Of a DNA stretch of 44,166 nt, positions 20,944 through 44,166 are shown piece after piece. Both the position numbers and the translations under genes were made by a program. Under the pieces are notes generated by a model that made no database searches, was not told the DNA's origin, and saw only the letters and a program-made list of their open reading frames with translations. The first letter of the stretch is position 1, and every line of letters begins with the position of its first letter. Source of the stretch: Deltaproteobacteria bacterium (GTDB taxonomy: Bacteria; Desulfobacterota; Desulfobacteria; Desulfobacterales; B30-G6); contig JAJDNW010000092.1 in NCBI GenBank assembly GCA_022340465.1, positions 1 to 44,166 of the forward strand, in the 5' to 3' direction.

Positions 20944-21085
20944 TAAAGGGAGAAATCCGGAGATGGGCCGATGATCGACAGGGAAATAACGCAAAAAGCG
21001 TGTTCAGGTGTTTACAGCCGGTGGTCGAAAAGCCCGCCGCAAACCCTGAACCGAACACCGATTACCTTGTATCTAAAGAACCACT

Positions 21086-24381: not shown

Positions 24382-25727
24382 CCAAGAAAATGCATATCAT
24401 GATCGTGGACGACGAAAAAATCGTCCGGGAGTCGTTGTACTACTGGTTTCAAAAATCGGGGCACACCGCCGAAACAGCGGCTTCCGGTTTTGAAGCCCTG
24501 GAAAAGCTTGAAAAGGTTCCCTTTGACCTGCTCTTTGTGGATATTAAAATGCCCGGCATGGACGGTATCGAGCTGCTGGAAAGGGTCAAAACGGATTTTC
24601 CGGATACCATCGTCGTCATTATCACCGCTTACGGTTCCATTGACTCCGCTGTCGACGCGATGAAAAAGGGCGCTCATGACTATCTGCTCAAGCCATTCAA
24701 GCCCGATTATCTGTCACTGGTCCTGGAAAAGGTCCTGCAGCAAAAAGCCCTGACCTCCGAATACAACTACCTCAAGGGACGCCTGGAAAAAATCACCCGG
24801 TTCGACAACATCATCGGCCAATCGCCTCCCATGAAAGAGATTTTCAAGTTGATCCCCGAGATCGCCGCCAGCGAGGCATCCATTTTGCTGACAGGCGAAA
24901 CGGGAACCGGCAAAGAGCTGGTGGCCAGGGCTATCCATGCCGAGAGCAACCGTGCCCTGCTCCCATTCATCGCCATTAACTGCGGCGCCATTCCGGATTC
25001 ATTGCTGGAAAGCGAGCTGTTCGGCCATCAAAAGGGGGCTTTTACAGACGCAAAGCACGCACGCAAGGGATTTCTCGAAGTCGTTTCCGGGGGCACCCTG
25101 TTCCTGGATGAAATCGGGGAAATCAGCCCGAAGATGCAAGTGGATCTTCTGCGGGTGCTGGACGAAAAAAAAATAACCCGCATCGGCAACCGCACGCCCG
25201 TCGCAGTGGATTTCCGGCTGATTTCAGCGACGCGCAAAGACCTGCAAAAAGCCATTGCCGACGATGACTTCAGGGAGGACTTCTTTTACCGTATCAACGT
25301 CATTCACATGCCTATCCCTCCCTTGCGGCAAAGAAAAGAGGACATCCCGCTGCTGGTGGATCATTTCCTCGAAAAATACAGCCAGGAAACCGCTAAACGG
25401 GTAGACCGGGTTTCAAAGCAAACCTTGAACGAGCTCGTGCAGTACCAGTGGCCGGGCAATATCAGAGAGCTGGAGAATGCCGTGGAGCGGGCGGTGGTGC
25501 TTTCCAAATCCCGAACCCTCACCACCAGCGACTTCGCCTTTTTGAAGACGGCGGCCTCTCCACGCGAAGAAACGCCAACCTTAAAGAGGCTGGAAAAAAC
25601 GTACATCCTGGAAACATTGAACGGATGCGGCTGGAATGTCACCCGGGCTGCGAAGGTGTTGGGCATCAACCGGGTAACCCTTCACAAAAAGATCGACCGC
25701 TATGAGCTGAAAAGCGGAAAGAGATGA
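24378..25727 (+). CDS. NtrC-family response regulator (REC-AAA+-Fis)
   Basis: A 449-residue response regulator starting at a GTG that overlaps the kinase stop codon. The receiver (5-120) has Asp55 in LLFVDIKMPGMDG, Thr/Tyr in ITAYGS and Lys in LLKPFKPD. The AAA+ domain has Walker A GETGTGKE, Walker B GGTLFLDEIGEIS and QWPGNIRELENAVERAV. The sigma-54 contact loop reads GAFTDA (220-225) in place of GAFTGA. The C-terminal Fis-type HTH is VTRAAKVLGINRVTLHKKI. It probably forms a two-component pair with the Rossmann-PAS kinase. Being next to the Hdr control region, it is a good candidate for binding the 27635-27733 dyads. Confidence 0.95.
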   Translation: MTKKMHIMIVDDEKIVRESLYYWFQKSGHTAETAASGFEALEKLEKVPFDLLFVDIKMPGMDGIELLERVKTDFPDTIVVIITAYGSIDSAVDAMKKGAHDYLLKPFKPDYLSLVLEKVLQQKALTSEYNYLKGRLEKITRFDNIIGQSPPMKEIFKLIPEIAASEASILLTGETGTGKELVARAIHAESNRALLPFIAINCGAIPDSLLESELFGHQKGAFTDAKHARKGFLEVVSGGTLFLDEIGEISPKMQVDLLRVLDEKKITRIGNRTPVAVDFRLISATRKDLQKAIADDDFREDFFYRINVIHMPIPPLRQRKEDIPLLVDHFLEKYSQETAKRVDRVSKQTLNELVQYQWPGNIRELENAVERAVVLSKSRTLTTSDFAFLKTAASPREETPTLKRLEKTYILETLNGCGWNVTRAAKVLGINRVTLHKKIDRYELKSGKR

Positions 25728-26269
25728 GCGCGGATCGTCCCTGCATCGGCCTGATACCCATGGGCGACATACCCGACATGACGCCCAAGGTCATCGCAGC
25801 CCATATTTCAGGCTACTTCGATCTGTCGGCGGAATTGATGCCTCCCATGAAAAACCCTGCCCATGCCCTGAACAGGCGGCTGCTTCAGTACGATGCAGGC
25901 GCCGTCATCAAACACATGGAAGCGATGTCGTTCGGGGCCTTCGACAAAGTCGTCTGCATCATGGATGTCGATCTCTTTTTACCGGTCTTCACCCACATAT
26001 TCGGCGAAGCGCGTCAGGGGGGGCGTGTCGCCCTGGTGTCCATGTTTCGCCTCAGGGAGAATGAAGCGGACACCGTCGCCCCGTCGGCCAGGACGCTGGA
26101 GCGCGTCGCCAAAGTGTCCCTCCACGAATTGTGCCACCTGTACGGCCTGACCCACTGCGAGGACAGTCGATGTCTCATGCACTTCTCAGGGAACCTGGCA
26201 GACCTGGACCGGAGCTCATTCAATCTGTGCCGCTACTGCCGGCGGTTTCTGAATGATGCCGTACAGTAG
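25724..26269 (+). CDS. amzA: Archaemetzincin-family zinc metalloprotease
   Basis: A 181-residue protein with the diagnostic archaemetzincin signature: HELCHLYGLTHC (zinc ligands and catalytic Glu), then SRCLM (Met-turn) and a final CRYC pair that binds the structural zinc. The N-terminal IGLIPMGDIP and DKVVCIMDVDLFLPVFTHIFGEA are also family-like. No signal peptide, so cytoplasmic. Physiological substrates of prokaryotic AmzA are not known. The ATG overlaps the NtrC-type gene's stop by 4 nt and a terminator follows 58 nt later, so this protease is the last gene of the two-component operon, which is an unusual setting. Confidence 0.93.
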   Translation: MSADRPCIGLIPMGDIPDMTPKVIAAHISGYFDLSAELMPPMKNPAHALNRRLLQYDAGAVIKHMEAMSFGAFDKVVCIMDVDLFLPVFTHIFGEARQGGRVALVSMFRLRENEADTVAPSARTLERVAKVSLHELCHLYGLTHCEDSRCLMHFSGNLADLDRSSFNLCRYCRRFLNDAVQ

Positions 26270-26366: not shown

Positions 26367-27309
26367 ACTTTTTCCCTGTCCCTAAAAACGCCTCCACCAG
26401 AACCTCCCATCCGATTTCGGGAAACGACCCGGCGACATCATTGAGGGGCTCCGCACCGGTGGCCGCCAAATTTTCATATTCCGGCCCCATCAACGACAAG
26501 AGTCTGCTGCTTTCATGCTCCATCCAACGGATGCTTTCACGACCGAAATAAAGCCCCTTCACATCCTTCTTCGGCATCACCGGTTCCAGGATAAACAGCC
26601 ATCCTTCATGATAGGGATCGATAGTGACTATTTCAGGATGTTCGAGCGCTTTATGGTTCACCGCCAAGACGACACCGGTCACCGGCGACAAAACCGCAGC
26701 TTCATGGCCGCCCTTTTTAAACGTCCACCCCACCTGACTCTGGTTCAACTTCTCGCCCAGCGGCGGCAGCAGCAGTTGCCGGGGGCAACCGAAGACTTTG
26801 GATGAAAAATCATCGAGCCCTACCCTGGCGCGCCCCCCGTGTTCAAATCGCGACCAGCTGTGTCCCATATGATAGTAATACCCTTTGGCCACCCGGTATC
26901 CGGATGCCGATGACAGCGGCGGCGCCTCCAATTCCCCCCCCAAATCGACCTCATCCAGTATTTGATCAAAAGGGCAGTGATAACACTCGTAATTCATGGT
27001 ACAAATTTTCGGTGCATCGATGCGGCCCGTCAGGGCATGACGGCATGGCCGCGTGGCGCCATAGTGCGACTTTTTCAGATAGTCGACCCAGCCCTCTGCG
27101 CTCAGTGTCTCTTTGCGCCGGCCTTTTTTCATACCCATGGCCTTGCGCATGCCCAAATCAAAGGGACAGTTGTTGCAGTCATAGTCGTTGTCGCATTTAC
27201 GGAAATTAATCACGCCGGCTTTCATCCAGATGCACGCATCTTCCACCACCTCAAAGCCTTGTACCCGCGTTTTACCGTTTCTTTTTTTCATGTTCCCCTT
27301 TGCATTCAT
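26365..27309 (-). CDS. GcvH-like protein with duplicated Cys clusters, lacking the lipoyl lysine
   Basis: A 314-residue protein. The N-terminal part has two copies of a cysteine module: Cys26-x12-Cys39-x5-Cys45-x2-Cys48 ending in CPFD, then Cys-x13-Cys-x5-Cys-x2-Cys again ending in CPFD. The C-terminal part resembles the glycine cleavage H protein: VGWTFKKGGHEAAVLSPVTG, VVLAVNHKALEHPEIV and DPYHEGWLFILEP. At the position of the lipoylated Lys in the usual ESVKA loop this protein has GGHEA, so it probably is not lipoylated there. The Cys modules could hold metal or iron-sulfur centres. AAAGGAGG lies 6 nt upstream of the chosen ATG at 27309. It is transcribed divergently from the Hdr operon and shares its control region. 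Function unknown. Confidence 0.82.
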   Translation of the reverse strand: MNAKGNMKKRNGKTRVQGFEVVEDACIWMKAGVINFRKCDNDYDCNNCPFDLGMRKAMGMKKGRRKETLSAEGWVDYLKKSHYGATRPCRHALTGRIDAPKICTMNYECYHCPFDQILDEVDLGGELEAPPLSSASGYRVAKGYYYHMGHSWSRFEHGGRARVGLDDFSSKVFGCPRQLLLPPLGEKLNQSQVGWTFKKGGHEAAVLSPVTGVVLAVNHKALEHPEIVTIDPYHEGWLFILEPVMPKKDVKGLYFGRESIRWMEHESSRLLSLMGPEYENLAATGAEPLNDVAGSFPEIGWEVLVEAFLGTGKK

Positions 27310-27634
27310 TGCGGCACCTCCTTTACGCCACATCCCGTGGTGTGGTTGAAATCTGTCTCTTGCTTATTGGTAGAGCAATATGAATACCAACGGACTCGAT
27401 GAGGGTGTATTTTATTACAACTATTTGTATTTATTGTTATTAACTGTTGCAAGCCGCATGATTGGCCCACGACTGCCCGGCGACGGCCGGGCGGAAACGA
27501 TGCGTTTTTTTACACATCTGAATCTCGCACCGGCATGGATGACATTCTTATTGTTTAAATACAGTGAATTAACATGTGTATCGCTTTGCTACACCCCCTG
27601 TTGCCATTTCTAATGGCGCGAAGACGGTTTCGGG

Positions 27635-27915: not shown

Positions 27916-28326
27916 ATGCATCGCCGTCAAAAAGCCAAAATCCTCGTAGTGGATGACGAACCTGATACGATAATTTTTCTCTCTAACCTTCTGCATTCGG
28001 ACGGGTTCAAGCCCATCACCGCCGACAACAAGAAAGACGGGCTGCAAAAGGCGGTCGAAGAAAAGCCAGCCGTCATCATTCTCAACGTGATGATGCCGGG
28101 GGAGGCCGGCGTCACCATGTATCGAAACCTCAAACGGAGCGCCCAACTGAAAAGTGTTCCCGTCATCATGCTCTCAACCATCGACAAAAAAACATTTCTA
28201 AAATGCCACAACATCTACGGCCAGTATATCTGCGAGGAGATGGCCACCATGGACCGGTTTATCGAAAAACCGCCGGAGGCCGATGATTTTCTCCTTACAG
28301 TCAGGGAGTTGTCAGGATATCGTTAA
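27916..28326 (+). CDS. Stand-alone receiver domain lacking the phospho-Asp
   Basis: A 136-residue CheY-like protein. The acidic pair is present in LVVDDEPD, Ser/Thr in IMLSTID and the Lys in FIEKPPE. At the phosphorylation site the sequence is VIILNVMMPGEAG, with Asn57 where Asp is expected. It therefore should not accept phosphate in the normal way and may work as a locked or ligand-gated adaptor. There is a small insertion (KCHNIYGQYICEEMATMDR) between the Thr and Lys positions. It is the first gene after the sigma-54 promoter and lies 35 nt before the HdrA-GltD fusion, so it is part of the same transcript. Confidence 0.9.
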   Translation: MHRRQKAKILVVDDEPDTIIFLSNLLHSDGFKPITADNKKDGLQKAVEEKPAVIILNVMMPGEAGVTMYRNLKRSAQLKSVPVIMLSTIDKKTFLKCHNIYGQYICEEMATMDRFIEKPPEADDFLLTVRELSGYR

Positions 28327-28361: not shown

Positions 28362-31300
28362 ATGAGCATCAAAATAGGGTTTTACATCTGTCATTGCGGC
28401 ATCAATATCGCTTACAAGGTTCGGGTCGAGGAGGTCGCAGCCTATGCCGGCCGGTTGAAAAATGTCGTCGTTGCCAGAGACTACAAATTCATGTGTTCGG
28501 ATCCGGGCCAGGAAATGATCGAAAAAGACATTCGTGACTTTAATCTCGACCGGGTGGTGGTGGCCTCATGCTCGCCGCGGCTTCACGAAAAAACCTTTCA
28601 AAGTGCCTGCCAAAGGGCCGGCCTGAACCCGTACATGTTTCAAATGGCCTCTGTTCGCGAACAGGTTTCCTGGGTTACCGAAAGTGAAGACGAGGCCACC
28701 AACAAAGCCAAAACGCTGGCGGCGGGCGCCATAAACCGCGTCAATTTTCATCAGGCCCTGGAAACCAGGGAGGTCACGGTCAACCCGGATACCGTCGTCG
28801 TCGGCGGTGGCATCGCCGGCATGCAGGCCGCCATCGATATAGGCAACGCCGGCAACACGGTTCACCTCGTGGAAAAAGCCCCCACCATCGGCGGCCATAT
28901 GCTGCAGTTCGACAAGACATTCCCGACACTGGACTGCGCGGCCTGCATCGGAACTCCCAAAATGGTGGAAGTCGCCCAGAACCCAAATATCCGACTCCAC
29001 ACCTACAGCGAAGTCACCGACGTTTCCGGTTATATCGGCAATTACACGGTGACCATTCGCAAAAAACCCCGCTATGTCATCGAGGGCGTTTGTACGGGCT
29101 GTGGGGAATGTTCCCAGGTTTGCCCCGTAACGGCCCCCAATGCGTGGGATGAAAATCTGTGTATGCGCAAAGCTATCGGCAGGTCCTTTCCCCAGGCGGT
29201 CCCCATCACCTTCAACATCGAAAAAATGGACCGTGCGCCCTGCGTCACCACCTGTCCCGCCGGCGTCAACGTACAGGGGTATGTTCAACTTATCAAAGAA
29301 GGCAGGTATAAGGATGCGGTAAAATTGATCATGGAGCGTCTGCCCCTGCCGGGCGTCTTGGGGAGGGTCTGCCCTCATCCCTGCGAATCGGCATGCCGCC
29401 GCGGGGAGCTTGACGCCCCGGTGGCCATCAGGGCGCTGAAGCGATTTGCCGCCGATCAAATCACCCTTGAAGACCTGGAACGCCCGGCGATCGAAGACCG
29501 CCGGGAAAAAATCGCCGTCATCGGCTCAGGACCGGCCGGGTTGACGGTCGCCTACTATCTGCGTCTGAAGGGCTACCGGGTGACCATTTACGAAGCGCTA
29601 GAAAAACTCGGGGGCATGCTGCGTGTCGGCATTCCGGACTACCGGCTGCCGCCGGAAATTCTCGACAAAGAAATCGCGGCCATTCTCAGCCTGGGCATCG
29701 CCGTGGAGACCGGCAAACGTTTTGGGAAGGACATCTCACTCAAAACGCTGACATCCATGGGGTATGCGGCGGTATTTCTATCCATCGGTGCCCACCGGGC
29801 CCTGTCTCTGGGAATTCCCGGCCTTGAAAGGACCGACGGCGTGGTGGACGCCCTTGAATTTCTGCGCGACGTGAATCTCGACGGGGGCGTGCAGCCGGGC
29901 AGAGAGGTGGTGGTCATCGGCGGGGGAAATGTCGCCATGGATGCGGCCCGCGCGGCCAGACGTCTGGGCTCGGAAAAGGTGACCATCCTCTACCGCCGCT
30001 CCGAACGCGAAATGCCGGCCTACGCGGAAGAGATCGAAGATGCCAAGGCGGAAGGGATCGGGTTTCACTTTCTGACATCACCGGTGACGGTCCTCAGCCG
30101 GAACGGCCGGGTCACCGGTATCGAGTGTATTCGCAACGAACTGGGCCCTGCCGACGCCAGCGGTCGACGACGTCCGCTTCCCGTCAAGGATTCCGAGTTC
30201 GTCATTGCATGTGATGCGGTTGTCCCCGCCGTCGGTCAAAAAACGGACAACGCCTGGGCGCCAAACGAGCCGGGCCTCGATTGGACGTCACGGCAGACCA
30301 TCCGGGTAGATCCGCAAACCCTGCAAACCAGCGTCCCGCATGTGTTTGCAGCCGGTGACGCCGTCACCGGGCCTGCCACCGTGATCGAGGCGGTCAGTGC
30401 AGGCCACAAGGCGGTTGCAGCCATTCACGGATTTCTCGATCGTGACGACCCGGCCGCATTGGCGGCGGCATTACAGCCCCAGGAGCCCGCCGGAGAAAAC
30501 TGGCGGCCCCTGCCCGACGGCGTCGAACCCAACGGCCGCCCTCACGTCGTGCAGACCCCACCGGCCAACCGCTTGGATTCGTTCTGTGAAGTCGAGCTGG
30601 GATTCTCCGAACAGGATGCACGGCACGAGGCTGAACGGTGTCTGAATTGCGGGCTGTGTTGTGAGTGCATGGCGTGTGTACAGGCATGCGAGGCCCAGGC
30701 CATAGACCACCGGATGCAGGCCGAGGAATTAGAGGTGCAGGCCGGCACCATCATTCTCGCCACGGGCTATGACCTCATGGATCCGACGCCGTTGAAACCG
30801 TACGGCTATCACAAGTATCCCAACGTATACACCAGTCTCGAGTTCGAACGGTTGAGCAACGCCACCGGGCCCACCGGCGGCAATATTCTCATTCGCGATG
30901 CACGGGGAGAATTCACGAAAGAACCCGAAAGTGTCGCCTTGCTCCACTGTATCGGCAGCCGGGACGTCAATTACCATGAATACTGTTCAAGGGTCTGCTG
31001 CATGTACGCCCTCAAATACGCGCACCTGCTCAAGGAAAAAGTCGGGCACCATACCAAGGTCTACGATTTTTACATCGATCAGCGCTGCTACGGAAAAGGC
31101 TATGAGGAATTCTACCGGCGCTGCCAGGAAGAAGGCACCACCTTTATCCGGGGAAAGGTGGCGGAAATCACGGACAAGGCGACATCCGAGAGCGAAGAAG
31201 GGAAGCTTATCGCCATTGCCGAAGATACACTCTTGGGAAGCCGCCTTCGCGTTCCGGTGGACATGGTCGTACTCTGCGCGGCCATGGAAGCCAGAGAGGA

Positions 31301-31772
31301 TGCCGGCCAGGTGGGCCGGGTTTTCGGGATCAACCGGGGGGCCGACGGATTCTTTCTGGAGGAGCACCCCAAACTGGGGCCGCTGAACACGGCTACCGAC
31401 GGTGTGTTTATTGCCGGGGCTTGTCAGTCACCGAAAGATATCCCCGACACGGTCGCGCAGGCGTCCGGCGCCGCCGCCAAGGCCCTTTCCCTGTCTACCC
31501 GCGGCAAGGTGCCGGTCCCCTCGACCATTTCCTGGATCGACCCCTCTGTTTGCGCCGGATGTCAGACATGTATCGGGCTTTGCCCCTATTCCGCGATAGA
31601 GTTCGACGAGAGAAGAAATGTCTCGGTCATCAACGAGGCGGTCTGCAAGGGTTGCGGCAGCTGCAGCGGCGCCTGCCCCAGCGGGGCCGCCCAGGTGAAG
31701 CATTTCACAAAAAAACAGATTTTTGCGGAGTTCAGCGGCATCATGGATGCACTCAGTGCTGTGGGTATGTAA
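28362..31772 (+). CDS. HdrA-like flavoprotein with inserted GltD/NfnB-like NAD(P)H module
   Basis: An 1136-residue iron-sulfur flavoprotein. Residues 1-140 are the HdrA N-terminal domain (FYICHCGINIA...VVVASCSPRLHEKTF). The HdrA FAD loop [13 protein letters not shown] is near 145-157. The HdrA-specific Cys pair is DCAAC at 191-195, and a ferredoxin motif CTGCGECSQVC at 244-254. A complete glutamate synthase small-subunit-like module is then inserted (about 285-755): CVTTCPAG (Cys294, Cys298), RVCPHPCESACRRG, FAD loop VIGSGPAGL (about 387) and NAD(P) loop VVVIGGGNVAMDAARAA (about 515). A Cys-rich linker follows (CLNCGLCCECMACVQAC, 760-776), then the rest of HdrA with two C-terminal 2[4Fe-4S] motifs (CAGCQTCIGLC; CKGCGSCSGAC). 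It likely couples NAD(P)H to the Hdr electron pathway. Confidence 0.9.
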   Translation: MSIKIGFYICHCGINIAYKVRVEEVAAYAGRLKNVVVARDYKFMCSDPGQEMIEKDIRDFNLDRVVVASCSPRLHEKTFQSACQRAGLNPYMFQMASVREQVSWVTESEDEATNKAKTLAAGAINRVNFHQALETREVTVNPDTVVVGGGIAGMQAAIDIGNAGNTVHLVEKAPTIGGHMLQFDKTFPTLDCAACIGTPKMVEVAQNPNIRLHTYSEVTDVSGYIGNYTVTIRKKPRYVIEGVCTGCGECSQVCPVTAPNAWDENLCMRKAIGRSFPQAVPITFNIEKMDRAPCVTTCPAGVNVQGYVQLIKEGRYKDAVKLIMERLPLPGVLGRVCPHPCESACRRGELDAPVAIRALKRFAADQITLEDLERPAIEDRREKIAVIGSGPAGLTVAYYLRLKGYRVTIYEALEKLGGMLRVGIPDYRLPPEILDKEIAAILSLGIAVETGKRFGKDISLKTLTSMGYAAVFLSIGAHRALSLGIPGLERTDGVVDALEFLRDVNLDGGVQPGREVVVIGGGNVAMDAARAARRLGSEKVTILYRRSEREMPAYAEEIEDAKAEGIGFHFLTSPVTVLSRNGRVTGIECIRNELGPADASGRRRPLPVKDSEFVIACDAVVPAVGQKTDNAWAPNEPGLDWTSRQTIRVDPQTLQTSVPHVFAAGDAVTGPATVIEAVSAGHKAVAAIHGFLDRDDPAALAAALQPQEPAGENWRPLPDGVEPNGRPHVVQTPPANRLDSFCEVELGFSEQDARHEAERCLNCGLCCECMACVQACEAQAIDHRMQAEELEVQAGTIILATGYDLMDPTPLKPYGYHKYPNVYTSLEFERLSNATGPTGGNILIRDARGEFTKEPESVALLHCIGSRDVNYHEYCSRVCCMYALKYAHLLKEKVGHHTKVYDFYIDQRCYGKGYEEFYRRCQEEGTTFIRGKVAEITDKATSESEEGKLIAIAEDTLLGSRLRVPVDMVVLCAAMEAREDAGQVGRVFGINRGADGFFLEEHPKLGPLNTATDGVFIAGACQSPKDIPDTVAQASGAAAKALSLSTRGKVPVPSTISWIDPSVCAGCQTCIGLCPYSAIEFDERRNVSVINEAVCKGCGSCSGACPSGAAQVKHFTKKQIFAEFSGIMDALSAVGM

Positions 31773-31831: not shown

Positions 31832-32254
31832 ATGGATGCATTTGAACCGACCATCATTGCCTTTGTTTGTAACTGGTGCACCTATACCGCCGCCGACCTG
31901 GCAGGAACCTCCCGGCTGACGTATCCCAAAAACGTGCGGTTGATACGCGTCATGTGCACGGGAATGGTGGATCCCCAATATGTCATCAAGGCATTTTTGG
32001 AAGGTGCCGACGGTGTCCTCGTCAGTGGCTGCCACCCCGGCGACTGCCACTACATCAACGGGAATTACAAAGCCCGCAGACGCATCAAGCTTCTTAAAGA
32101 AATTCTCCCGCAATTCGGGTTTGAAGAAACCCGCTTGAAGTTGACCTGGATCGGCGCCAGCGACGGCATCCTCTTCGCCGAGGTGATGCGTGAGCTTGTC
32201 GCCCGAATCAAAGCGCTGGGCCCGAATCAAGCCAAGCTGAAAATGGTGATTTAG
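31832..32254 (+). CDS. MvhD/FlpD-like [2Fe-2S] electron-transfer subunit
   Basis: A 140-residue protein of the hydrogenase delta/MvhD family: FVCNWCTYTAADLAG near the start, RVMCTGMVDPQYVIKAFLEGADGVLVSGCHPGDCHY, then NGNYKARRRI. The Cys residues carry a [2Fe-2S] cluster in characterised homologues and connect an electron donor to HdrA. Selenocysteine is found in some homologues, but here the NWC position is Cys. It sits between the HdrA-GltD fusion and the FdhB-like gene, 60 and 14 nt from them, with GGAGGAG upstream. It probably passes electrons between those two subunits. Confidence 0.93.
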   Translation: MDAFEPTIIAFVCNWCTYTAADLAGTSRLTYPKNVRLIRVMCTGMVDPQYVIKAFLEGADGVLVSGCHPGDCHYINGNYKARRRIKLLKEILPQFGFEETRLKLTWIGASDGILFAEVMRELVARIKALGPNQAKLKMVI

Positions 32255-32267: not shown

Positions 32268-33413
32268 ATGGGTGGCACAATGAAAATTGAAGTCGAAAAC
32301 AATGACATACTGCAATCCCTCCGGGATTTTTTCCGTTCCCTTCTCGAAAAGAAAGCCATCGATGCGATTTTGGTTCCCCAAAAGCTTCCCATGAAAAACA
32401 TGGTGATGCCCATGCTTGTTACGGATGCGAAGGACCTTTCGCACGTCGACCCTTTGGCGCCTGTATTCCCTTTGAATGCCGGCAGGATGGCTGCCAGGCT
32501 CACCAAAAAGCCCATCGGGGGCAAAATTCTCGTCGTGTTGCGCACCTGTGAACTGCGGGCCTTCATCGAGCTTGTCAAACTCAAACAGGCGCGCACGGAG
32601 GAGATCATCCTCCTCGGCATCGATTGCCTGGGAGCCTTTCAGAACCGGGACTACTTCGAACTGGTAGGAGACGATCCTTCCGAAACCACGCGTCTGTTCC
32701 ATGAAAGCGTTCTGGCCGGCGAAAGCGGCGCCATCAAGGGCTTTGAAATCGCACCCGCCTGTCAGACCTGTGAGCATCCCATACCCGAACAGGCGGATAT
32801 CCTCATCGGACTTTACGGTGTCGATACCCATCACAATTTGCTCGTTCAGGCCAACACGCAATCCGGCGAGGATTTTCTGGAAGGCGCGCACCTGTCTCCG
32901 GCGGCGTCGCCTTCACGGCGAAAAGCGGTCGTCGATGCCCTCCTGAAGGATCGAAAGGCCCGCCGGGACGCCATGTTTGCCAACACCCGGCAACAGATCG
33001 ACGGCATTGAAAAACTGACGACCTACTTCGCCAACTGCGTCAATTGCTACAATTGCAGGGTTGCCTGTCCGGTTTGTTACTGCAGGGAATGTGTCTTTTC
33101 CACGGATGTGTTCGAACACGAACCATCCCAGTACCTGGGGTGGTCCAAACGAAAGGGCATGATCAAAATGCCGACAGACACCGTTTTTTACCATTTAACC
33201 CGGCTGGCCCATATGAGCACGGCCTGCATCGGATGCGGTCAATGCTCCAATGCCTGTCCCAATGATATTCCGGTCATGGAGGTCTTTCGCACCATTGCCC
33301 ATCGTTCCCAGAAAGCTTTCGGCTACGAGGCCGGCCGGAGTCTCGATGAAAAGCCACCGCTGTCCGAGTTCCGGGAGAAAGAATTTGAAGATATCGTCGG
33401 AATGGGAGATTAG
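32268..33413 (+). CDS. FdhB/FrhB-like iron-sulfur subunit
   Basis: A 381-residue protein of the coenzyme F420 hydrogenase/dehydrogenase beta-subunit superfamily. An N-terminal domain (about 1-200) contains VVLRTCELRAFIELVKL and IILLGIDCLGAF, common to this family. The C-terminal iron-sulfur part contains CVNCYNCRVACPVCYCREC (257-275) and CIGCGQCSNACPN (about 320-332), enough for two or more [4Fe-4S] clusters. In bacteria without F420 such subunits usually feed electrons from formate dehydrogenase or ferredoxin; the direct donor here is unknown because no catalytic formate dehydrogenase or hydrogenase subunit is in the window. GGAGG precedes the ATG by 5 nt. Confidence 0.88.
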   Translation: MGGTMKIEVENNDILQSLRDFFRSLLEKKAIDAILVPQKLPMKNMVMPMLVTDAKDLSHVDPLAPVFPLNAGRMAARLTKKPIGGKILVVLRTCELRAFIELVKLKQARTEEIILLGIDCLGAFQNRDYFELVGDDPSETTRLFHESVLAGESGAIKGFEIAPACQTCEHPIPEQADILIGLYGVDTHHNLLVQANTQSGEDFLEGAHLSPAASPSRRKAVVDALLKDRKARRDAMFANTRQQIDGIEKLTTYFANCVNCYNCRVACPVCYCRECVFSTDVFEHEPSQYLGWSKRKGMIKMPTDTVFYHLTRLAHMSTACIGCGQCSNACPNDIPVMEVFRTIAHRSQKAFGYEAGRSLDEKPPLSEFREKEFEDIVGMGD

Positions 33414-33501: not shown

Positions 33502-36500
33502 ATGCATAAAAAAATCGGCAAAGCCCTTGTTGTCGGCGCCGGTATCGGCGGCATCCGCGCAGCGCTGGATTTGGCGGAAACGGGTTATGGCGTCACCCTT
33601 ATCGACAAATCGCCCCACATCGGCGGTATTCTGAGCAAACTCGATTATCAGTTTCCAACGAATCATTGCGGCATGTGCAAAATGCTGCCGCTGGTGGACC
33701 GGGACAAATCCTCCCAGTACTGCCTCCGCAAAGGACTTTTTCACGAAAATATCGAGATCCTTCTATCCACCGAGCTCATCGCCGTTGACGGCGAAGCCGG
33801 ACAGTACACCGCCCAACTGAAACAGAGGCCCAACTGGGTGGATGCGAACAAGTGCATCGGGTGTGCCCTGTGCGTCGATGCCTGCCCGGTGGAGGTGCCG
33901 GATGAATTCAATGAGGGCATGAGTAAAAGAAAGGCCATTTACCTTCCGGTCCCCCACGCCATCCCCAATCCATTCATAATCGACATGGCCGCCTGCACGC
34001 GATGTGGGGAATGCGAAAAAATCTGTCCCACAGGCGCCATTCGGCTTTCCGAACAGGCTAGAAGCGAATTCAAGATTCTTGTGGTGGATGATGAACTGAT
34101 CGTGCGTGACTCGCTCAAAGAATTGCTCGGGGAGGAGGGATTTGCCGTCCAAATGGCGGCCTCGGGTTCCGAGGCGCTGGAAAAACTGGATGTGGAAACA
34201 TATCATCTCATGCTGACGGACATCAAAATGCCCGGTATGGACGGCGTCGAGCTGCTCGGGGTCGCAAAAGAAAAGTGCCCGGATCTTACCGTCATCATGA
34301 TGACGGCGTATGCCACCGTCGAAACGGCGGTCGAAGCCATGAAAATAGGTGCGTTGGATTATCTGATCAAACCTTTCGATCCCGACAAAATGATTCCCAT
34401 GCTCCTCGATATCTACGCAGACTTCGAGGCCGCCGGCGGTCTCGAAAGGGAAGTCGGCGCCATTGTGCTGTGCGGGGGCACCGACTACTATCGGCCCGAA
34501 ACCGGAAAAAACGCCTATGGCTATGGAATTATACCCAACGTGGTGACCAGTATGGAATTTGAACGAATGCTGAGCGGACTGGGGCCGGCACAGGGCCGCC
34601 TTGTGCGGCCATCCGACGGTAAACCGGTGCGCAATATCGGCTGGATTCAGTGCGTCGGCTCCCGGGACCTCCAGTCGAACGCCGATTTCTGTTCGAGCAT
34701 CTGCTGCATGCATGCCATAAAGGAAGCGCTGCTGGCCAAGGAGAAAAGCACCGACGATGTCGAAACGACCCTGTTCTACATGGACATGCGCACATTTGAA
34801 AAATCCTTCCAGCGGTACCGGGATTCCGCGGAAAAAACGCATGGGGTTCGATTCCTGAGAGGAAGGGTCCACTCCACCGAACAAAACGTCGCGGGGGATG
34901 TCGTCGTTCGATACGCGGAGCCCGACGGCACCGCCCGGAACATGTCACTCGACCTGATGGTGCTCTCCCTGGGGCAGCGACCGGCCAAAGGCGCCGATAT
35001 GCTGGCGAACATGCTGGATCTCGGTCAGAATCAATGGGGCTTTTTGGACACCCTTCCCTTTTACGCCACACGGACGCAACGGGAAGGGGTCTTTATCGGC
35101 GGCGCTTTTTCGGGCCTGACGGATATAAGCAATTCCGTTATACAGTCATCGGCCGCCGCCCTGGCGGCATCGAGCGCCATCCATTCGTCCGGGGGCGGGC
35201 TGGCGCCGGAGGTTTCCAGCGTTGCGCCGCTGCGGGATGTTTCGCGCGAACGGCCTGAAATACTCGTGATTCTCTGCACCTGCGACGAAACGCTTTCCGA
35301 CGGCCTCGATGTCGACGCCATGGCAAATGCGCTGCAAAACGATCCGTCGGTCAAATGGGTCGAGCGGCTGCGGCAGGCCTGTACGGAAACCGGCTGGAAC
35401 GAGTTGACCGAACACATCAAGGACCGTCGGCCGAATCGGGTCGTTATCGGTGCCTGCCGGCCCTATGTGTACGCCCGAAAATTGAACGAGCTGTCCAAGG
35501 CAACCGGACTCCCGCCCTCGCTGATGGATGTGGTGGACATCCGGACACCGCTTTTCGGATTTGCCGAAACCGACCCGGAAGACAGGCAAAGGGTTGTTTT
35601 GAGTGCCCTTAAAACGGGCATCGCCGGGCAACAATATGCAGACCCGGCGCCCGTTCCGACCTGCCCCGTTCGACAAAAAGCACTGGTTGTGGGTGGCGGA
35701 ATCGCCGGCTTGACGGCGGCGCTGGGCATTGCCGATCATGGGTTTCGTGTCGACGTGGTGGAAAAATCCGATGAACTTGGCGGCAATCTGAATTGGATGA
35801 AAAACACCATCGAAGGACACGACACAGCGTCACTTTTGGAAGAAACCGTCGCCAGGGTACACAAGCACCGACTGATAGACACGCACACGGCGTCGCGGAT
35901 CGTATCCTCGTTTGGCGACGTCGGCTCTTTTTTTACGACCATTCAGGACGAGAAAGGTGTCCCGCTTGACCTGCAACACGGGGTGACGGTTCTGGCCACC
36001 GGCGGCTGCGAAGCGCCGGCCGAAAGTTATGCATACGGCAGGCACGACGGAATTTTAACCCAGAAGGAGTTTGCGTGCCGGCTGGCATCCGAACAGATCG
36101 ACCCGGCTGCAATAGACTCGGTCGTGATGATTCAATGCGTGGGCAGCCGGGAAGCCCCGAGAAACTACTGCAGCCGGATCTGCTGCGCCGCTTCGTTGAA
36201 ATACGCGCTTCAATTGAAGGCGGGCAACCCGGGTATCAACATCTACGTTCTATACAGAGACATGATGGCATTCGGTTTTCTGGAATCCTACTACACCAGC
36301 GCCAGAAAAGCCGGTGTCGTGTTCATTCAATACCATGTCGACCGCAAGCCGGTTGTTCATGTGGACGGCGGCAAGCTCTCGGTGACGACCGTCGAACCGA
36401 TAATCGGCCGGCCCATTGAAATCAAACCGAATCTCGTAATTCTGGCCACGGGGATTGTGCCGAACCTGACCCGGGAACTGGCGGCGGTTTTCGACATTGC

Positions 36501-36918
36501 CATCGACCCGGACGGCTTTTTCCAGGAGGCCGAACCCAAATGGCGGCCTGTCGACGCCATCAAGGAGGGGGTGTTTGCCTGCGGGCTCACGCATTCGCCG
36601 CGCTCGGTTACGGAATCCATCGCCACCGCCGAAGCCGCTGCAGAGCGGTGCCTGAGAATTCTCACCAGGCACAATCTGCCGTCCGGAAAACTGGTGGCGC
36701 AAGTCCGGCACAACCTCTGCAGCCTGTGCGAACGCTGTATCGACGCCTGCCCGTACGGCGCCCGCGCACTGGACATGGACAAAGAAAGGGTCGAGGTCAA
36801 CCCGGTGATGTGCCAGGGATGCGGCTCGTGTGCTGCCGTTTGTCCCAACGACGCATCCATCCTGGCAGGGTTCCCGAAACAGCAAATGTTCCAGATACTG
36901 GATGCGGCCGTGATATGA
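33502..36918 (+). CDS. Tandem HdrA protein with an inserted CheY-like receiver domain
   Basis: An 1138-residue protein. Module 1 starts with FAD loop ALVVGAGIGGIRAALDLA and the HdrA Cys pair HCGMC (56-59), then two ferredoxin motifs (CIGCALCVDACP; CTRCGECEKICP, ending near 178). A complete receiver domain occupies about 190-310. It has DD196-197 in VVDDE, phosphoacceptor Asp240 in LTDIKMPGMDG, Thr268 in MMTAYA and Lys290 in LIKPFDP. The HdrA fold then resumes (YYRPETGKNAYGYG...; CVGSRD...CSSICCMHA). Module 2 (about 585-1138) has an HdrA N-terminal domain, FAD loop [12 protein letters not shown] (729-740), CVGSRE, and C-terminal CSLCERCIDAC (1073-1083) and CQGCGSCAAVC. AGGAGG precedes the ATG. 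All receiver residues needed for phosphorylation are intact, so the enzyme itself may be a two-component output. Confidence 0.93.
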   Translation: MHKKIGKALVVGAGIGGIRAALDLAETGYGVTLIDKSPHIGGILSKLDYQFPTNHCGMCKMLPLVDRDKSSQYCLRKGLFHENIEILLSTELIAVDGEAGQYTAQLKQRPNWVDANKCIGCALCVDACPVEVPDEFNEGMSKRKAIYLPVPHAIPNPFIIDMAACTRCGECEKICPTGAIRLSEQARSEFKILVVDDELIVRDSLKELLGEEGFAVQMAASGSEALEKLDVETYHLMLTDIKMPGMDGVELLGVAKEKCPDLTVIMMTAYATVETAVEAMKIGALDYLIKPFDPDKMIPMLLDIYADFEAAGGLEREVGAIVLCGGTDYYRPETGKNAYGYGIIPNVVTSMEFERMLSGLGPAQGRLVRPSDGKPVRNIGWIQCVGSRDLQSNADFCSSICCMHAIKEALLAKEKSTDDVETTLFYMDMRTFEKSFQRYRDSAEKTHGVRFLRGRVHSTEQNVAGDVVVRYAEPDGTARNMSLDLMVLSLGQRPAKGADMLANMLDLGQNQWGFLDTLPFYATRTQREGVFIGGAFSGLTDISNSVIQSSAAALAASSAIHSSGGGLAPEVSSVAPLRDVSRERPEILVILCTCDETLSDGLDVDAMANALQNDPSVKWVERLRQACTETGWNELTEHIKDRRPNRVVIGACRPYVYARKLNELSKATGLPPSLMDVVDIRTPLFGFAETDPEDRQRVVLSALKTGIAGQQYADPAPVPTCPVRQKALVVGGGIAGLTAALGIADHGFRVDVVEKSDELGGNLNWMKNTIEGHDTASLLEETVARVHKHRLIDTHTASRIVSSFGDVGSFFTTIQDEKGVPLDLQHGVTVLATGGCEAPAESYAYGRHDGILTQKEFACRLASEQIDPAAIDSVVMIQCVGSREAPRNYCSRICCAASLKYALQLKAGNPGINIYVLYRDMMAFGFLESYYTSARKAGVVFIQYHVDRKPVVHVDGGKLSVTTVEPIIGRPIEIKPNLVILATGIVPNLTRELAAVFDIAIDPDGFFQEAEPKWRPVDAIKEGVFACGLTHSPRSVTESIATAEAAAERCLRILTRHNLPSGKLVAQVRHNLCSLCERCIDACPYGARALDMDKERVEVNPVMCQGCGSCAAVCPNDASILAGFPKQQMFQILDAAVI

Positions 36919-37021: not shown

Positions 37022-37594
37022 ATGCATACGACAGCCTTTGACGAGGGAACGCCGGAACCCGGAGACAGACCGGAAAGAGACCCTCTTGACAGCATCAGAG
37101 AGATGGTCCTCCCGTGTATTCAGTGCGGCACCTGCACCGGTTCGTGCCCCAATGCGTTTGCCATGGACAAAACCCCCCGGCGGATGTGGCGTATGGTGCT
37201 CATGGGTGAGACGGATGCCATTTTCAACAGCCGGACATTCATTCTGTGCTCGTCATGCTACTACTGCACGCTCAGATGTCCGCGCGGGCTGCCCCTGACC
37301 GATGCCATGAACGCCCTCAAGCAGATTGCCGCCAGAAACAACCTGGCCAAATACAAGCCGAGCATTCTGTTTTACAAGAAGTTTATTGAAAGTGTCAGGC
37401 GTCACGGCCGGGTCAGGGAAATGGAATTCATGACCCTGTACTTCGGTGCGCTCAAAAGCCCTTTGGTGCCCTTCAAGTTCGCCCCCCTGGGCGTGAAGCT
37501 ATTGCAAAAAGGTAAGGTGTCGTTCCAGGTACCGTCCAAAGGAACGGCGCCCCTGGAAAAGCTTTTTCAAAAGGTGATGGAGTTGGAACGTTGA
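37022..37594 (+). CDS. hdrC: HdrC-like heterodisulfide reductase iron-sulfur subunit
   Basis: A 190-residue soluble HdrC with two classical [4Fe-4S] motifs, CIQCGTCTGSCPN (about 37-49) and CSSCYYCTLRCP (about 80-91). It would conduct electrons from HdrA to the catalytic HdrB. The C-terminal 90 residues (NNLAKYKPSILFYKKFIESVRRHGR) are helical as in the family. GAGGGGGTGATC precedes the ATG. It is separated from the HdrA-receiver gene by about 100 nt, and the stop codon lies inside the first unit of a three-copy 18-bp repeat that fills the gap to hdrB. Confidence 0.93.
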   Translation: MHTTAFDEGTPEPGDRPERDPLDSIREMVLPCIQCGTCTGSCPNAFAMDKTPRRMWRMVLMGETDAIFNSRTFILCSSCYYCTLRCPRGLPLTDAMNALKQIAARNNLAKYKPSILFYKKFIESVRRHGRVREMEFMTLYFGALKSPLVPFKFAPLGVKLLQKGKVSFQVPSKGTAPLEKLFQKVMELER

Positions 37595-37665: not shown

Positions 37666-38550
37666 ATGAAATACGTATACTATCCCGGCTGTTCACTGGA
37701 AGGAACCGCCAGGGAATATGATCTGGCCACCCGTGCCATGCTGCAGGCCGTTGGTGTCGAATTAATCGAAATAGAAAACTGGACATGCTGCGGCGCCAGC
37801 GCAGCGGAACCCATCAGTCGTCTTTTATCCCTTGCCCTGCCCGCCAGAAATATCGCCTTGGCGGAAGCGCATACCGACATCGATGACATTCTCGTACCGT
37901 GCAGCGCATGCTACCTCAATCTGAAAAAAGTTACCGAAACCGTCAAAAAGGAGCCTGCAACCCTCTCAACCCTCAACGGTGTTCTGGCCGAAGAGGGGCT
38001 GGAATTGAAGCGGCCGATGAATGTGCGGCACCTTCTGGATGTGCTTGCCAACGATCTCGGCGCCCGGCCCATAGGGGACCGGCTGCAAACCCCTATGTCC
38101 GGTTTCTCAATTGCCCCGTATTACGGTTGTCAGTGCCTGCGGCCTTACGCCGATTTCGACGATCCTGAAGCGCCGACATCCATGGAGGCCCTGATCGAAG
38201 CCACGGGCGCAACCGTGTTCGATTGGGAAATGGGGGGCAGATGCTGCGGCGCTTCCCACATGAACACCAAAATGGACGTCGCCCTGGAGCTGGTCGGTGC
38301 CATTCTGGAAGCCGCCCACGGGGCGGATGCCATCGTAACGGTTTGCCCCATGTGCCAGATGAACCTGGAGGCCTATCAGAAAAAAATATCGGGAATGCAT
38401 CGTAAAAACCTGCAGGTGACGATTCTTTACCTGCCCCAACTGCTGGGCTTGGCCATGGGGCTGCAGGACAGGTCATTGGGCCTTGGGCTGAATCTGGCCG
38501 TCACCGGCGGATTCAACTCCAAGTGGCACCGTGCCGTCGAAGCGGCATGA
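37666..38550 (+). CDS. hdrB: HdrB-like heterodisulfide reductase catalytic subunit
   Basis: A 294-residue protein with two CCG domains. The first has YYPGCSLEG, CCGAS and PCSACYLNL; the second has YYGCQCLRP, CCGASHMN and CPMCQMNLE. In methanogen HdrB these cysteines carry two noncubane [4Fe-4S] clusters that split CoM-S-S-CoB. In bacteria the disulfide substrate is unknown, with DsrC-type proteins or small thiols as possibilities. GAGGGAAAGGGT precedes the ATG. It closes the operon that begins at 27916; 88 nt without an obvious terminator separate it from the heme-kinase gene, so read-through is possible. Confidence 0.94.
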   Translation: MKYVYYPGCSLEGTAREYDLATRAMLQAVGVELIEIENWTCCGASAAEPISRLLSLALPARNIALAEAHTDIDDILVPCSACYLNLKKVTETVKKEPATLSTLNGVLAEEGLELKRPMNVRHLLDVLANDLGARPIGDRLQTPMSGFSIAPYYGCQCLRPYADFDDPEAPTSMEALIEATGATVFDWEMGGRCCGASHMNTKMDVALELVGAILEAAHGADAIVTVCPMCQMNLEAYQKKISGMHRKNLQVTILYLPQLLGLAMGLQDRSLGLGLNLAVTGGFNSKWHRAVEAA

Positions 38551-38638: not shown

Positions 38639-40924
38639 ATGCTGAACATTTTTAGCAAAATCCGACGACGACTCGTATCGAAGCTGATCCTCACAGTAGG
38701 GTTCGTCTTTCTGTTCTCGATCACGACGTGGGCCTATTTCAACATCGATTATCAAAAAGAAAAGCTCATGCAGAACATCGTCAATGCAACCGACAGGCTG
38801 ACGTCCACCATACGCCTGGGCACCCACTATGCCATGATGCTCAATTCCCGGGACGACATCAACCAGATCATCACCAATATCGGGAAACAGCCCGAAATAA
38901 AACACATCCGCATCTACAACAAATCGGGTGAAATCAAATACTCCAACCACGCATCGGAAGTAAACTCGGCCACCAACATCAAGGCGGAAGCCTGCAATAT
39001 CTGCCACCGCTCGAAACCGCCTCTGACCGAACTGGCGCTGAACCGGAGAACCCGGTTTTTCAACGACCCGTCCGGAGAACGGCTCCTGGGCATCATCAGC
39101 CCGATTCGCAACGAGCCCGGTTGTGCAGAGGGCTGCCATGTGCACCCTGAAAACAAGAAAATCCTGGGCGCCCTGGACCTGGTTGTCTCCCTGAAGGAAA
39201 CCGACCGGGAGATTATCATCGCCCAGAGAAGAATCTTCGTGCTGGCCTTTACCGTCTTTCTGCTCACCTCGATCATCATTCTGGTTTTCGTGCTGACCTT
39301 CGTAAACCGCCCCATTAAAAAACTGATCGAAGATACGCGCCTGATTGCCCAGGGGAAATATCCCGGAGAAGTCGAAATAGATCGGGAGGACGAGATGGGG
39401 CAACTCGCAGCCGCCATCCACCAGATGAGCGAAAAAATCGCGCAGAAACAGGCCGCCCTGAACCAGCAGAGGGATGAATACATGGACCTTTTCCAGCGGG
39501 TTCCCTGCCTGATCACGGTTCAAGACCGGTCCTTCAAACTGATCCGCTACAACCAGGAGTTCGCCGACAAATTCGACCCCCAGCCGGGAGAGCACTGCTA
39601 CGAAGCCTACAAAGGCCGTTCCGAAAAATGCCGGTCGTGTCCGGTAGAAAAAACGTTTAGCGACGGGCAATCCTACTCCACGGAAGAGACGGGTGTGGAC
39701 AAAGACGGGTCCATCAAGCATTGGATCGTCAGGTCATCCCCCATTTTCAACGAAAAGGGCGACATCGTGGCCGCCATGGAAATATCCCTCGACATCACCG
39801 CCAGAAGGCTTCTGGAAGTCGAGTTGGAACAATCCGAAAAAAAATACCACGCCATTTTCAACAATATCCCCAACCCGGTGTTTGTCCTCGACCAGAACAA
39901 CTTCGAAATCCTGGACAGCAACAACAGCGTGGCAACCGTGTACGGTTACACCGCGGACGAGATCAGGGGGCGCACCTTCCTGGAGCTGTTCCGAACCGAC
40001 GAAACCGAGCACTATGCCTTCAAGCTGCGCACCGCCTCCATCATCAACCAGGCCCGGCACATCGGAAAGGACGGCAAGGAGCTGTTCGTCAACATCCGCA
40101 TGTCACCCTCGGAGTACTCCGGACAGCGGGTGCTCCTGGTAACCACCAGCGATATCACCAAACGCCTGGAGACCGAACAGCAGTTGATCCAGGCCAGCAA
40201 AATGGCCACCCTGGGCGAGATGGCCACCGGCGTCGCCCACGAACTCAACCAGCCGCTTTCGGTCATCAAAACGGCCTCCAGTTTCCTGGTGAAAAAGCTC
40301 AACACCCAACAGCCCATCGCGGAGCAAATCCTGGCAACCATGCTCGAAAAGGTCGATGGCAACGTTGACCGGGCCACCAAGATCATCAATCACATGCGAC
40401 AGTTCGCCAGAAAATCGGATGTGGCCATGGAAAAAGTCGATGTCCATTCGGTGCTGGAAAGCGCCTTTGAAATCTTCAGCCAGCAGCTCAAAGTGCGGGG
40501 CATCGAGATCCTGCGCGAGTTCTCCCCGGACCTGCCCAGGGTAAAAGCCGATCCCGGCCGCCTGGAGCAGGTGTTTATCAATCTGCTGCTCAACGCCAGG
40601 GACGCCATCGAGGAACGCTGCAGCGGCCAGCCAGGCAGCGACCAGGAAAAAAGCATCCTCTTGAAAACCTACGCCGACCGGGACCATGTGACCGTCGAGA
40701 TCTGCGACACCGGCGTGGGCATACCGCCCGATATCGTGGAAAAGGTTTTCGAACCCTTTTTCACCACCAAAGAGGTCGGCAGGGGCACCGGCCTGGGACT
40801 GTCGATCAGCTACGGGATCGTCAAAGACTGCGGCGGGGAAATCATGGCCGTGCCCAATCGAGGCCGGGGAACCTGTTTTCGCCTTGTCTTCCCCGCCCTG
40901 AAACCACCGGCGCAACCCGAATAG
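38639..40924 (+). CDS. Membrane histidine kinase with periplasmic c-type heme motifs
   Basis: A 761-residue sensor. TM1 is at about 14-35 and TM2 at about 198-222, with a periplasmic domain of about 160 residues between them. This domain contains CNICH (119-123), a canonical CXXCH heme c site, and CAEGCH (162-167), a CX3CH variant. HAMP follows (about 223-270), then a PAS with [16 protein letters not shown], a second PAS (about 400-515), HisKA with His534 in [14 protein letters not shown], and HATPase motifs [16 protein letters not shown] and [11 protein letters not shown]. Heme attachment outside the membrane would let it sense redox state or a gas ligand. The ATG has a poor ribosome binding site. 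It is followed by a receiver-kinase hybrid. Confidence 0.92.
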
Positions 40925-41062: not shown

Positions 41063-42202
41063 ATGTCAGCCGATAATGAAAAAAACGAGATCTTGCTGGT
41101 CGACGATGAAGCCGACATCCGCGACGTTCTCGCCATCGCACTCGAGGATCTGGGGTATGACGTGCTTGCGGCGGTCAACGGTGAAGAGGCGCTGCGGATC
41201 TTCAAAACCCGTTCCCCCTCGCTGGTGCTGACGGACATCAAGATGCCTCACATGGACGGCATCGAACTCCTCAAGCGCATCAAACAGGAAAATCCGGAGT
41301 GCGAGGTGATTATGATCACCGGTCACGGTGACATGAACCTGGCCATCAAAAGCCTCAAGCACGAAGCCACCGATTTCATCACCAAACCCATCAATGTCGA
41401 TGCCCTGGAAATATCCCTCAAGCGTGCCGAGGATAAAATCGTTGTCAGGGAAAAACTCAAAGCCTACACGCGCAGCCTCGAGGCCCTCATCAGGGAAAAA
41501 ACAGAACTGCAGGACAATCTTTCCGCGCTGGGATTGATGATCGGCTCCATCTCGCACGGTATCAAGGGTCTCATCACCGGCCTTGACGGGGGCATCTACC
41601 TCGTCAATGCCGGCATCGAAAAAAAGGACCTGTCCCGCATCCAGGAAGGGTGGGACATCATCCTGACCATGATCGACCGGATCCGCAAACTGGCCGAGGA
41701 CATTCTGCTGCAGGCCAAGGAGCGGGAACCGGAAATGAGGCCGGTGGACCTGCCGTCTTTTGCCGGCGAAGTTGCCCAAATCATCGCGCCCAAAATGGAA
41801 AAGCACGGGATCGATTTCATCTGTGACTTCGAGGCCGATGCCGGGGCCGGCATTCTCGACGCCAGATATATCACCACGGCCCTGGTCAACATCCTGGAAA
41901 ACGCGGTCGATGCCTGTGTCAAAGACATCCGCAACAAAAACAAACGCATCACCTTCGGCCTCGAGACCGACAATCGGCATGTACGGTTCACCATTCACGA
42001 CAACGGCATCGGCATGGACCTGGAAACCAGGGAAAAAATATTCTCCCTGTTCTATTCCTCCAAAGGGCGCAAGGGTACCGGCCTGGGACTTTTCATCGCC
42101 CACAAAATCATCGGGCAGCACGACGGCGGCATCCATGTGGATTCGATGCCGGGTCAGGGGGCGAAATTTACCGTCAAGCTCCCCAGGAAACCGGCCCGGT
42201 AA
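41063..42202 (+). CDS. Receiver-histidine kinase hybrid with atypical H-box
   Basis: A 379-residue soluble protein. The receiver (about 8-125) has DD in LVDDEADI, Asp58 in VLTDIKMPHMDG, Thr in MITGHGD and Lys in ITKPINVD. The kinase half has His165 in the sequence ISHGIKGLITGLDGG, not the usual HEINNP or HELNQP. HATPase motifs are NILENAVDA, DNGIGMD and GTGLGLFIAHK. The layout resembles the protein at 19771 but the histidine box belongs to a different class. It probably receives phosphate from the heme-containing kinase next door. No DNA-binding output; targets could be receivers in the Hdr operon. Confidence 0.88.
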   Translation: MSADNEKNEILLVDDEADIRDVLAIALEDLGYDVLAAVNGEEALRIFKTRSPSLVLTDIKMPHMDGIELLKRIKQENPECEVIMITGHGDMNLAIKSLKHEATDFITKPINVDALEISLKRAEDKIVVREKLKAYTRSLEALIREKTELQDNLSALGLMIGSISHGIKGLITGLDGGIYLVNAGIEKKDLSRIQEGWDIILTMIDRIRKLAEDILLQAKEREPEMRPVDLPSFAGEVAQIIAPKMEKHGIDFICDFEADAGAGILDARYITTALVNILENAVDACVKDIRNKNKRITFGLETDNRHVRFTIHDNGIGMDLETREKIFSLFYSSKGRKGTGLGLFIAHKIIGQHDGGIHVDSMPGQGAKFTVKLPRKPAR

Positions 42203-43831: not shown

Positions 43832-44166
43832 ATGGCAAAAGATGTAATCGGTTCGGTACTGGTAGTCGGCGGCGGCATCGCCGGAATGCAGTCCGCGCTT
43901 GATCTGGCAAATTCCGGCTACTACGTACATCTTCTCGAAAAGTCGCCCGCCATCGGCGGCGTGATGAGTGAACTGGACAAGACCTTTCCAACCAACGACT
44001 GCGCGATGTGAATTATTTCACCTGTACTGGTCGAGGTCGGCCGGCATCTGAACATCAACCTGATCACCAACTCCGAAATAGAAAAAATCGAGGGTTCCGC
44101 GGGCAATTTCAAGGCCTTCATCAACTCGAAGCCCCGCTACATCAATCCCGACGCCTGCACCTCCTG
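43832..44166 (+). CDS. hdrA: HdrA-like selenoprotein (partial, runs off window; UGA-encoded Sec60)
   Basis: The frame starts at ATG 43832 with GGGAG 7 nt upstream. The FAD loop [18 protein letters not shown] is followed by [24 protein letters not shown], then an in-frame TGA at 44009-44011. Beyond it the same frame continues to the window end with [22 protein letters not shown]...[12 protein letters not shown], which is clearly HdrA. The TGA is at the second Cys of the HdrA-specific Cys pair (DCAAC 191-195 and HCGMC 56-59 in the two other HdrA proteins here). Selenocysteine is known at this site in some HdrA proteins. Ordinary gene calling would stop at residue 59. At least 111 residues are visible and several hundred more are expected. 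It probably heads a second Hdr or Qmo-like operon. Confidence 0.93.
44009..44040 (+). promoter_or_regulatory. Bacterial SECIS-like hairpin after in-frame UGA
   Basis: Downstream of the UGA (44009-44011) ACCT (44020-44023) can pair with AGGT (44034-44037). An alternative extended stem uses CC (44021-44022) with GG (44039-44040) and CU with AG around a GGUCG loop (44029-44033). The loop starts 18 nt after the UGA and contains GGU, as expected for SelB recognition elements. The exact fold needs computation. Confidence 0.55.

Follow-up and report, generated by a model that had tools for sequence, protein, structure and literature searches.

A receiver domain built into a double HdrA of Desulfobacterales, a candidate site for phosphorylation control of electron bifurcation

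Does a phosphorylatable receiver (REC) domain belong to an HdrA subunit, and if it does, what might it do there? The question is raised by a gene at positions 33502-36918 (+) of contig JAJDNW010000092.1 (assembly GCA_022340465.1), a stretch of 44,166 nucleotides from a deltaproteobacterium of the order Desulfobacterales that is referred to below as the window. A first-pass annotation of the window, made from the letters alone, had described a complete CheY-like domain within the first HdrA module of the predicted protein. HdrA-type bifurcation has a central place in the energy conservation of anaerobes. The gene, called here hdrA-REC, was a single uninterrupted open reading frame (ORF) of 1138 codons, and its product was a double HdrA with the receiver carried by the first module. 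The receiver profile PF00072 matched residues 192-299, covering profile positions 1-108 of 111 (E=1.1e-29, 103 bits against a cut-off of 30.2), and the domain as a whole spanned residues 188-303. All four functional positions (DD196-197, D240, T268 and K290) were present and aligned with those of the orthologues, which ruled out a degenerate receiver in the window protein.

Segments on both sides of the receiver matched HdrA in profile searches. When the fusion was aligned with the solved HdrA structures (phmmer; 5odc and 8rvu), its residues 7-185 corresponded to HdrA residues 145-312, which comprise the start of the flavin adenine dinucleotide (FAD) domain and the inserted ferredoxin domain, and residues 314-507 corresponded to HdrA residues 317-510, where the FAD domain continues. 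Farther along, residues 583-749 represented the N-terminal region of HdrA and residues 955-1133 its C-terminal region. The receiver sits between residues ~312 and 317 of the solved M. thermolithotrophicus HdrA. At this point the inserted ferredoxin domain is past its second [4Fe-4S] motif and the FAD strand has yet to resume, which is where the first-pass annotation had located the receiver. The alignment therefore has the receiver taking the place of about four loop residues where the inserted ferredoxin domain ends. The eight cluster cysteines of that ferredoxin domain were kept in all of the aligned rows that covered them. The protein missed the cut-off of the NCBIfam family for CoB-CoM heterodisulfide reductase HdrA2 (NF040770; 680 versus 1100 bits), and is HdrA-like but outside this named family.

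AlphaFold2 models of the full-length protein (21 homologues; predicted local distance difference test (pLDDT) 79, predicted template modelling score (pTM) 0.81) and of residues 1-565 (71 homologues; pLDDT 87, pTM 0.82) both contained a canonical (beta-alpha)5 receiver. The modelled receiver superposed on 3crn at 1.3 A over 125 residues (Z 22.5), and the remainder of module 1 superposed on HdrA (5odc_A) at 2.1 A over 423 residues (Z 46). The models thus predict an independently folding receiver, a separate domain beside an HdrA fold that is undisturbed. Within the fused receiver, helix alpha4 was strongly conserved (0.88, versus 0.78 in the receivers of HK2, a REC-histidine kinase encoded downstream), and F190 at the junction was invariant. 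Since receivers commonly work through altered dimer contacts, these features could indicate an assembly or dimerisation module, in which phosphorylation would pick the docking partner at the ferredoxin domain (HdrL, the FdhB-like protein, MvhD or ferredoxin) and would not act on catalysis. However, alpha5, which is part of the common dimer face, was less conserved than in the HK2 receivers (0.51 versus 0.65), and a role of this kind is considered rather improbable.

The search for HdrA-receiver fusions that the first-pass annotation had proposed extended the architecture to dozens of genomes. A total of 88 distinct loci (97 rows less nine duplicates) were compared, drawn from relatives, a class draw, a phylum draw and named records. 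The receiver was intact in 80 of these, degenerate in one and absent from four, and the remaining three loci were cut by contig ends. Among the 80 intact receivers, whose pairwise identity averaged 62%, the phosphosite read DD/D/T/K in 79 and DE/D/T/K in one. Of 58 relatives, about 27 genomes had the fusion, whole or as a fragment. In an even draw across the class, 70 of 192 genomes, from 43 of 99 genera, had a match at E<=1e-205, and at least two of these were receiver-less orthologues; in the phylum-wide draw there were matches in eight of 198 genomes, two of them without the receiver and one with a degenerate receiver. Two finished chromosomes, those of Desulfobacterium autotrophicum HRM2 (G380) and Desulfobacula toluolica Tol2 (G285), carry the fusion. 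Chance origin was ruled out by this recurrence across genomes of the class and in both finished chromosomes. A scan of genome contigs returned mostly ordinary receivers, and yielded only four named fusions, at loci L067, L068, L069 and L074. One other phylum was surveyed, with further phyla and archaea left out: no full-length fusion was found at E<=1e-195 among 149 genomes of the phylum of G401, whose record is titled Firmicutes, or at E<=1e-120 in eight single genomes, which were reached via other loci.

An assembly join or frameshift that fused two separate genes had been named as a possible refutation. The junction was identical in 80 loci, HRM2 and Tol2 included, and an artefact was rejected as vanishingly improbable. 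Receiver-less proteins that are otherwise orthologous were found in G115, G077, G395 and G336, and in each the receiver was cleanly absent. Two of these, G395 and G336 (loci L252 and L253), belong to the genus of HRM2 and are its close relatives, and they have retained the Hdr operon in other respects. The degenerate receiver (G097; locus L167, fusion ORF at 8667) had DD changed to TP, T changed to A, and a short insertion. It is in effect a natural pseudo-receiver.

Such orthologues in the same type of operon indicate that the receiver is dispensable for the enzyme, which speaks for a relic or a structural filler with no part in signalling. The phosphosite is nevertheless near-invariant over the 80 intact cases, at the level of receiver identity given above. 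The same operon encodes, ahead of HdrL, the stand-alone receiver RR0, and there the phosphoacceptor aspartate is gone from five of nine orthologues, that of the window among them. Phosphosite conservation is therefore specific to the fused receiver and reflects selection, not a recent origin, so that a relic is regarded as very unlikely. RR0 itself may serve as a pseudo-receiver partner or scaffold for the Hdr operon.

The position of the insertion suggests where a receiver could act. In methanogen HdrA, polyferredoxins dock at the inserted ferredoxin domain, the anticipated electron exit (PMC12350162). Residues K409 and E356 of M. thermolithotrophicus HdrA have been proposed as marks of a bifurcating HdrA (PMC12054007); the equivalent residues of the fusion, K407 and E354, were present in all rows, and the enzyme would accordingly be predicted from sequence to bifurcate electrons. 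The GltD insertion of archaeal HdrA has been interpreted as putting the ferredoxin site to a new use (PMC12054007). The ferredoxin domain of HdrL, the sister subunit of the fusion, is interrupted between cluster motifs one and two by a GltD-like NAD(P)H domain. Within a single operon, then, two HdrA paralogues have insertions at neighbouring positions, enzymatic in HdrL and regulatory in the fusion.

The first-pass annotation had pointed to kinase genes on both sides of the operon. All four (at 19771, 22825, 38639 and 41063) encode a HATPase domain, and those at 19771 and 41063 are REC-kinase hybrids. The downstream pair, HK1 (38639) and HK2 (41063), is conserved; the upstream pair is less consistently linked and sits with sigma-54/NtrC-type regulators. 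HK1 has two predicted membrane segments, hydrophobic stretches near 12-34 and 192-226, and the region that they enclose contains the heme-type motifs CNICH (119) and CAEGCH (162). Motifs of the CxxCH and CX3-4CH types were found in all homologue rows that covered them, so HK1 probably senses through c-type hemes in the periplasm. Pairs of HK1-HK2 paralogues adjoin TmcABC and HmcACF genes that pass curated NCBIfam cut-offs. The Tmc and Hmc complexes connect the periplasmic cytochrome pool to the cytoplasm (PMC5109826). HK1 and its Tmc- and Hmc-adjacent paralogues thus form a family of candidate periplasmic redox sensors of sulfate reducers.

In readable loci, HK1 and/or HK2 were encoded within 9.5 kb of the fusion (HK1 identity cut-off 45%) in 47 of 55 loci with an intact receiver and in none of five with an absent or degenerate one (Fisher p=2.4e-4, uncorrected for ancestry). 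HK2 orthologues (>400 bits) were found in 18 of 27 fusion genomes and in one of 31 others (p=3e-7, likewise uncorrected), and in the HK2 tree fully supported branches part the fusion-linked from the Tmc/Hmc-linked full-length proteins, with few exceptions. Loss of the receiver or its key residues in homologues had been put forward as a sign against regulation. Such homologues do exist (four without the receiver and one degenerate of 85 readable), but the linked kinases are missing from these five loci too, which therefore fit regulation rather than oppose it. The co-occurrence of receiver and kinases is suggestive.

The reading favoured here, somewhat more probable than its negation, is that the receiver serves as a control domain worked by phosphorylation at the low-potential exit of HdrA, through which the heme kinase HK1 acts on D240 and alters electron delivery. 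By means of its c-type hemes, HK1 would sense how reduced the periplasmic cytochrome pool is or how large its electron load is, and phosphate would pass to D240 of HdrA, directly from HK1 or through the REC-kinase HK2. The usual receiver change, involving T268 and the beta4-alpha4/alpha4 face, could then alter where the neighbouring ferredoxin domain lies or how it docks. Delivery of low-potential electrons would thereby be raised or lowered, and bifurcation would be tuned or decoupled in seconds and not via transcription. We infer the identity of the HdrA receiver as the phosphate acceptor of HK1 and HK2, the signal of HK1, and the direction of the effect. For the full proposition, that phosphorylation gates flavin-based bifurcation, with a heme kinase switching the low-potential branch of HdrA via the receiver at the ferredoxin exit, the case for and the case against are evenly balanced. 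If it is true, the cell can adjust its energy coupling immediately as the periplasmic electron pool changes.

Information could also flow the other way. HdrA would then be the redox sensor, and the state of its ferredoxin clusters would alter uptake, storage or loss of phosphate by the receiver. Electron load would in this way be reported to HK1/HK2 and to the NtrC-type regulator nearby, with the receiver acting as a phosphate sink or feedback arm. The receiver does adjoin a [4Fe-4S] domain, REC-kinase hybrids and sigma-54/NtrC-type regulators are encoded in the same region, and HK1-type kinases exist without the fusion. On the other hand, G395 and G336 lost the receiver while the catalytic operon stayed whole, and in most genomes the kinase genes sit downstream in the hdr operon and not with a conserved transcription regulator, making reverse flow unlikely.

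Several observations weigh against kinase control of HdrA through the receiver. The linkage of receiver and kinases has only two to three independent contrasts, too few for significance, and eight intact loci have no recognised HK1 or HK2 nearby. HRM2 is among these: no HK2 homologue was found in its genome at E<=1e-70, and its HK1 homologue is unlinked. In addition, HK1-type kinases are present in receiver-less genomes, so HdrA is not their sole partner, and receiver-less G115 has an HK1-like kinase nearby that is 30% identical, under the 45% cut-off. A specific pairing of HK1 with HdrA was unsupported by the sequences, because the fusion-linked HK1 proteins do not form one clade (five label changes in the tree). 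The intact receiver of HRM2, lacking a kinase link, beside its receiver-less relatives G395 and G336, would fit loss of the kinase link preceding loss of the receiver. In Tol2 the fusion occurs with both kinases.

The gene order RR0-HdrL-MvhD-FdhB-HdrA.REC-HdrC-HdrB was conserved, and HK1 and HK2 come next in many genomes (Table 1). Upstream of the operon, a REC-kinase, a PAS-sigma54 activator, a PAS-kinase and an NtrC-type regulator are encoded consecutively at 19771-25724 (+), and some other genomes have relatives of these genes close to the fusion. Between them and the operon lie genes for an archaemetzincin-like M54 peptidase (25724-26266, +) and a GcvH-like protein (26368-27333, -). Another HdrA begins at 43847-44166 (+) and has an in-frame TGA (NDCAM*IISP), so it is likely a selenocysteine HdrA; several further HdrA genes of the source genome likewise contain one in-frame TGA each.

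Table 1. Features of the hdr operon, of the fusion gene and of the linked kinase genes in the window
Feature	Position	Strand	Basis
RR0, stand-alone receiver, phosphoacceptor Asp replaced by Asn (pseudo-receiver)	27916..28326	+	
HdrL, HdrA with GltD/NfnB-like NAD(P)H domain inside ferredoxin domain	28362..31772	+	
MvhD (FlpD family)	31832..32254	+	PF02662 E=1.7e-54
FdhB/FrhB-like Fe-S protein	32268..33413	+	PF04432
hdrA-REC, double HdrA carrying the receiver (1138 aa)	33502..36918	+	ORF and domain profiles
HdrA module 1, N-terminal part of thioredoxin-reductase-like FAD domain (residues 1-110), conserved HCGMCK motif	33502..33831	+	
Module 1 inserted ferredoxin domain, two C..C..C...C motifs (residues 118-128, 165-175)	33835..34056	+	
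CheY-like receiver (residues 188-303); D240 codon 34219-34221	34063..34410	+	PF00072 E=1.1e-29
Module 1 FAD domain resumes (residues 313-560)	34438..35181	+	alignment to HdrA
HdrA module 2 (residues 583-1138); no inserted ferredoxin domain; dicluster ferredoxin at the C terminus	35248..36915	+	
HdrC-like	37022..37594	+	TIGR03290
HdrB-like (two CCG domains)	37666..38550	+	domain profiles
HK1, membrane histidine kinase: periplasmic CNICH and CAEGCH heme-type motifs, HAMP, PAS, HisKA, HATPase	38639..40924	+	
HK2, cytoplasmic REC-histidine kinase	41063..42202	+	

The hardware for direct two-component control is combined in a single protein, which is widespread in one class of sulfate reducers. The fusion suggests that energy metabolism might be switched directly by phosphorylation and not only through gene expression. 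Because cultivated strains carry it, fast signal control of bifurcation is directly testable, and receiver-less G395, G336, G115 and G077 and degenerate G097 provide natural controls.

The first-pass annotation had called the architecture unusual, and this judgement held: no account of HdrA, or of any other bifurcating enzyme, with a receiver was found in the open-access literature, a search that did not extend to subscription journals and supplementary figures. REC-enzyme fusions are known and HdrA insertions are known; their combination is new, being undescribed in the open-access literature searched. Proteomics of HdrA2BC in D. multivorans (PMC5109826) probably concerns a non-fusion HdrA; in G013, the inferred D. 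multivorans genome, the fusion had only a 36% match, near 3.25 Mb and without a receiver.

The closest known locus is the HdrA4/hdrL locus VIII of HRM2 (PMC2702500), which has the same hdrL-mvhD-fdhB-hdrA-hdrC-hdrB arrangement as the window. HRM2 has the fusion, its key receiver residues complete, but unlike the window it has neither HK2 nor a linked HK1. The 2009 genome paper lists kinase, response regulator and CheY-like genes near hdr loci, and its main text does not mention a receiver inside HdrA4 (PMC2702500). Methanogen HdrABC-MvhAGD and Elp-Hdr (5odc, 8rvu; PMC12350162) share the HdrA fold, the ferredoxin insertion and the bifurcation-signature residues, but they have no receiver and their operon partners differ from those of the window. 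Among archaeal HdrA proteins, type II (with a doubled thioredoxin-reductase domain) and type III (with GltD inserted) share with the fusion the double FAD module, a foreign domain in the ferredoxin region, and K409/E356 (PMC12054007). No receiver was found among these archaeal classes in the available part of that paper, and their insertion is enzymatic, acting on NAD(P)H, whereas here it is regulatory.

The statement that receivers normally control transcription factors or flagella proved incomplete, as fusions of REC to metabolic enzymes are documented, including REC-thioredoxin reductase and REC-pyruvate phosphate dikinase (PMC5847659). HdrA-REC resembles these in having a receiver covalently joined to a metabolic enzyme, which by sequence places it among response regulators with an enzymatic output, and the FAD domain of HdrA is structurally related to thioredoxin reductase. 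Unlike the REC-enzyme fusions described there, the receiver of HdrA-REC lies inside the enzyme, and candidate kinases are encoded alongside it.

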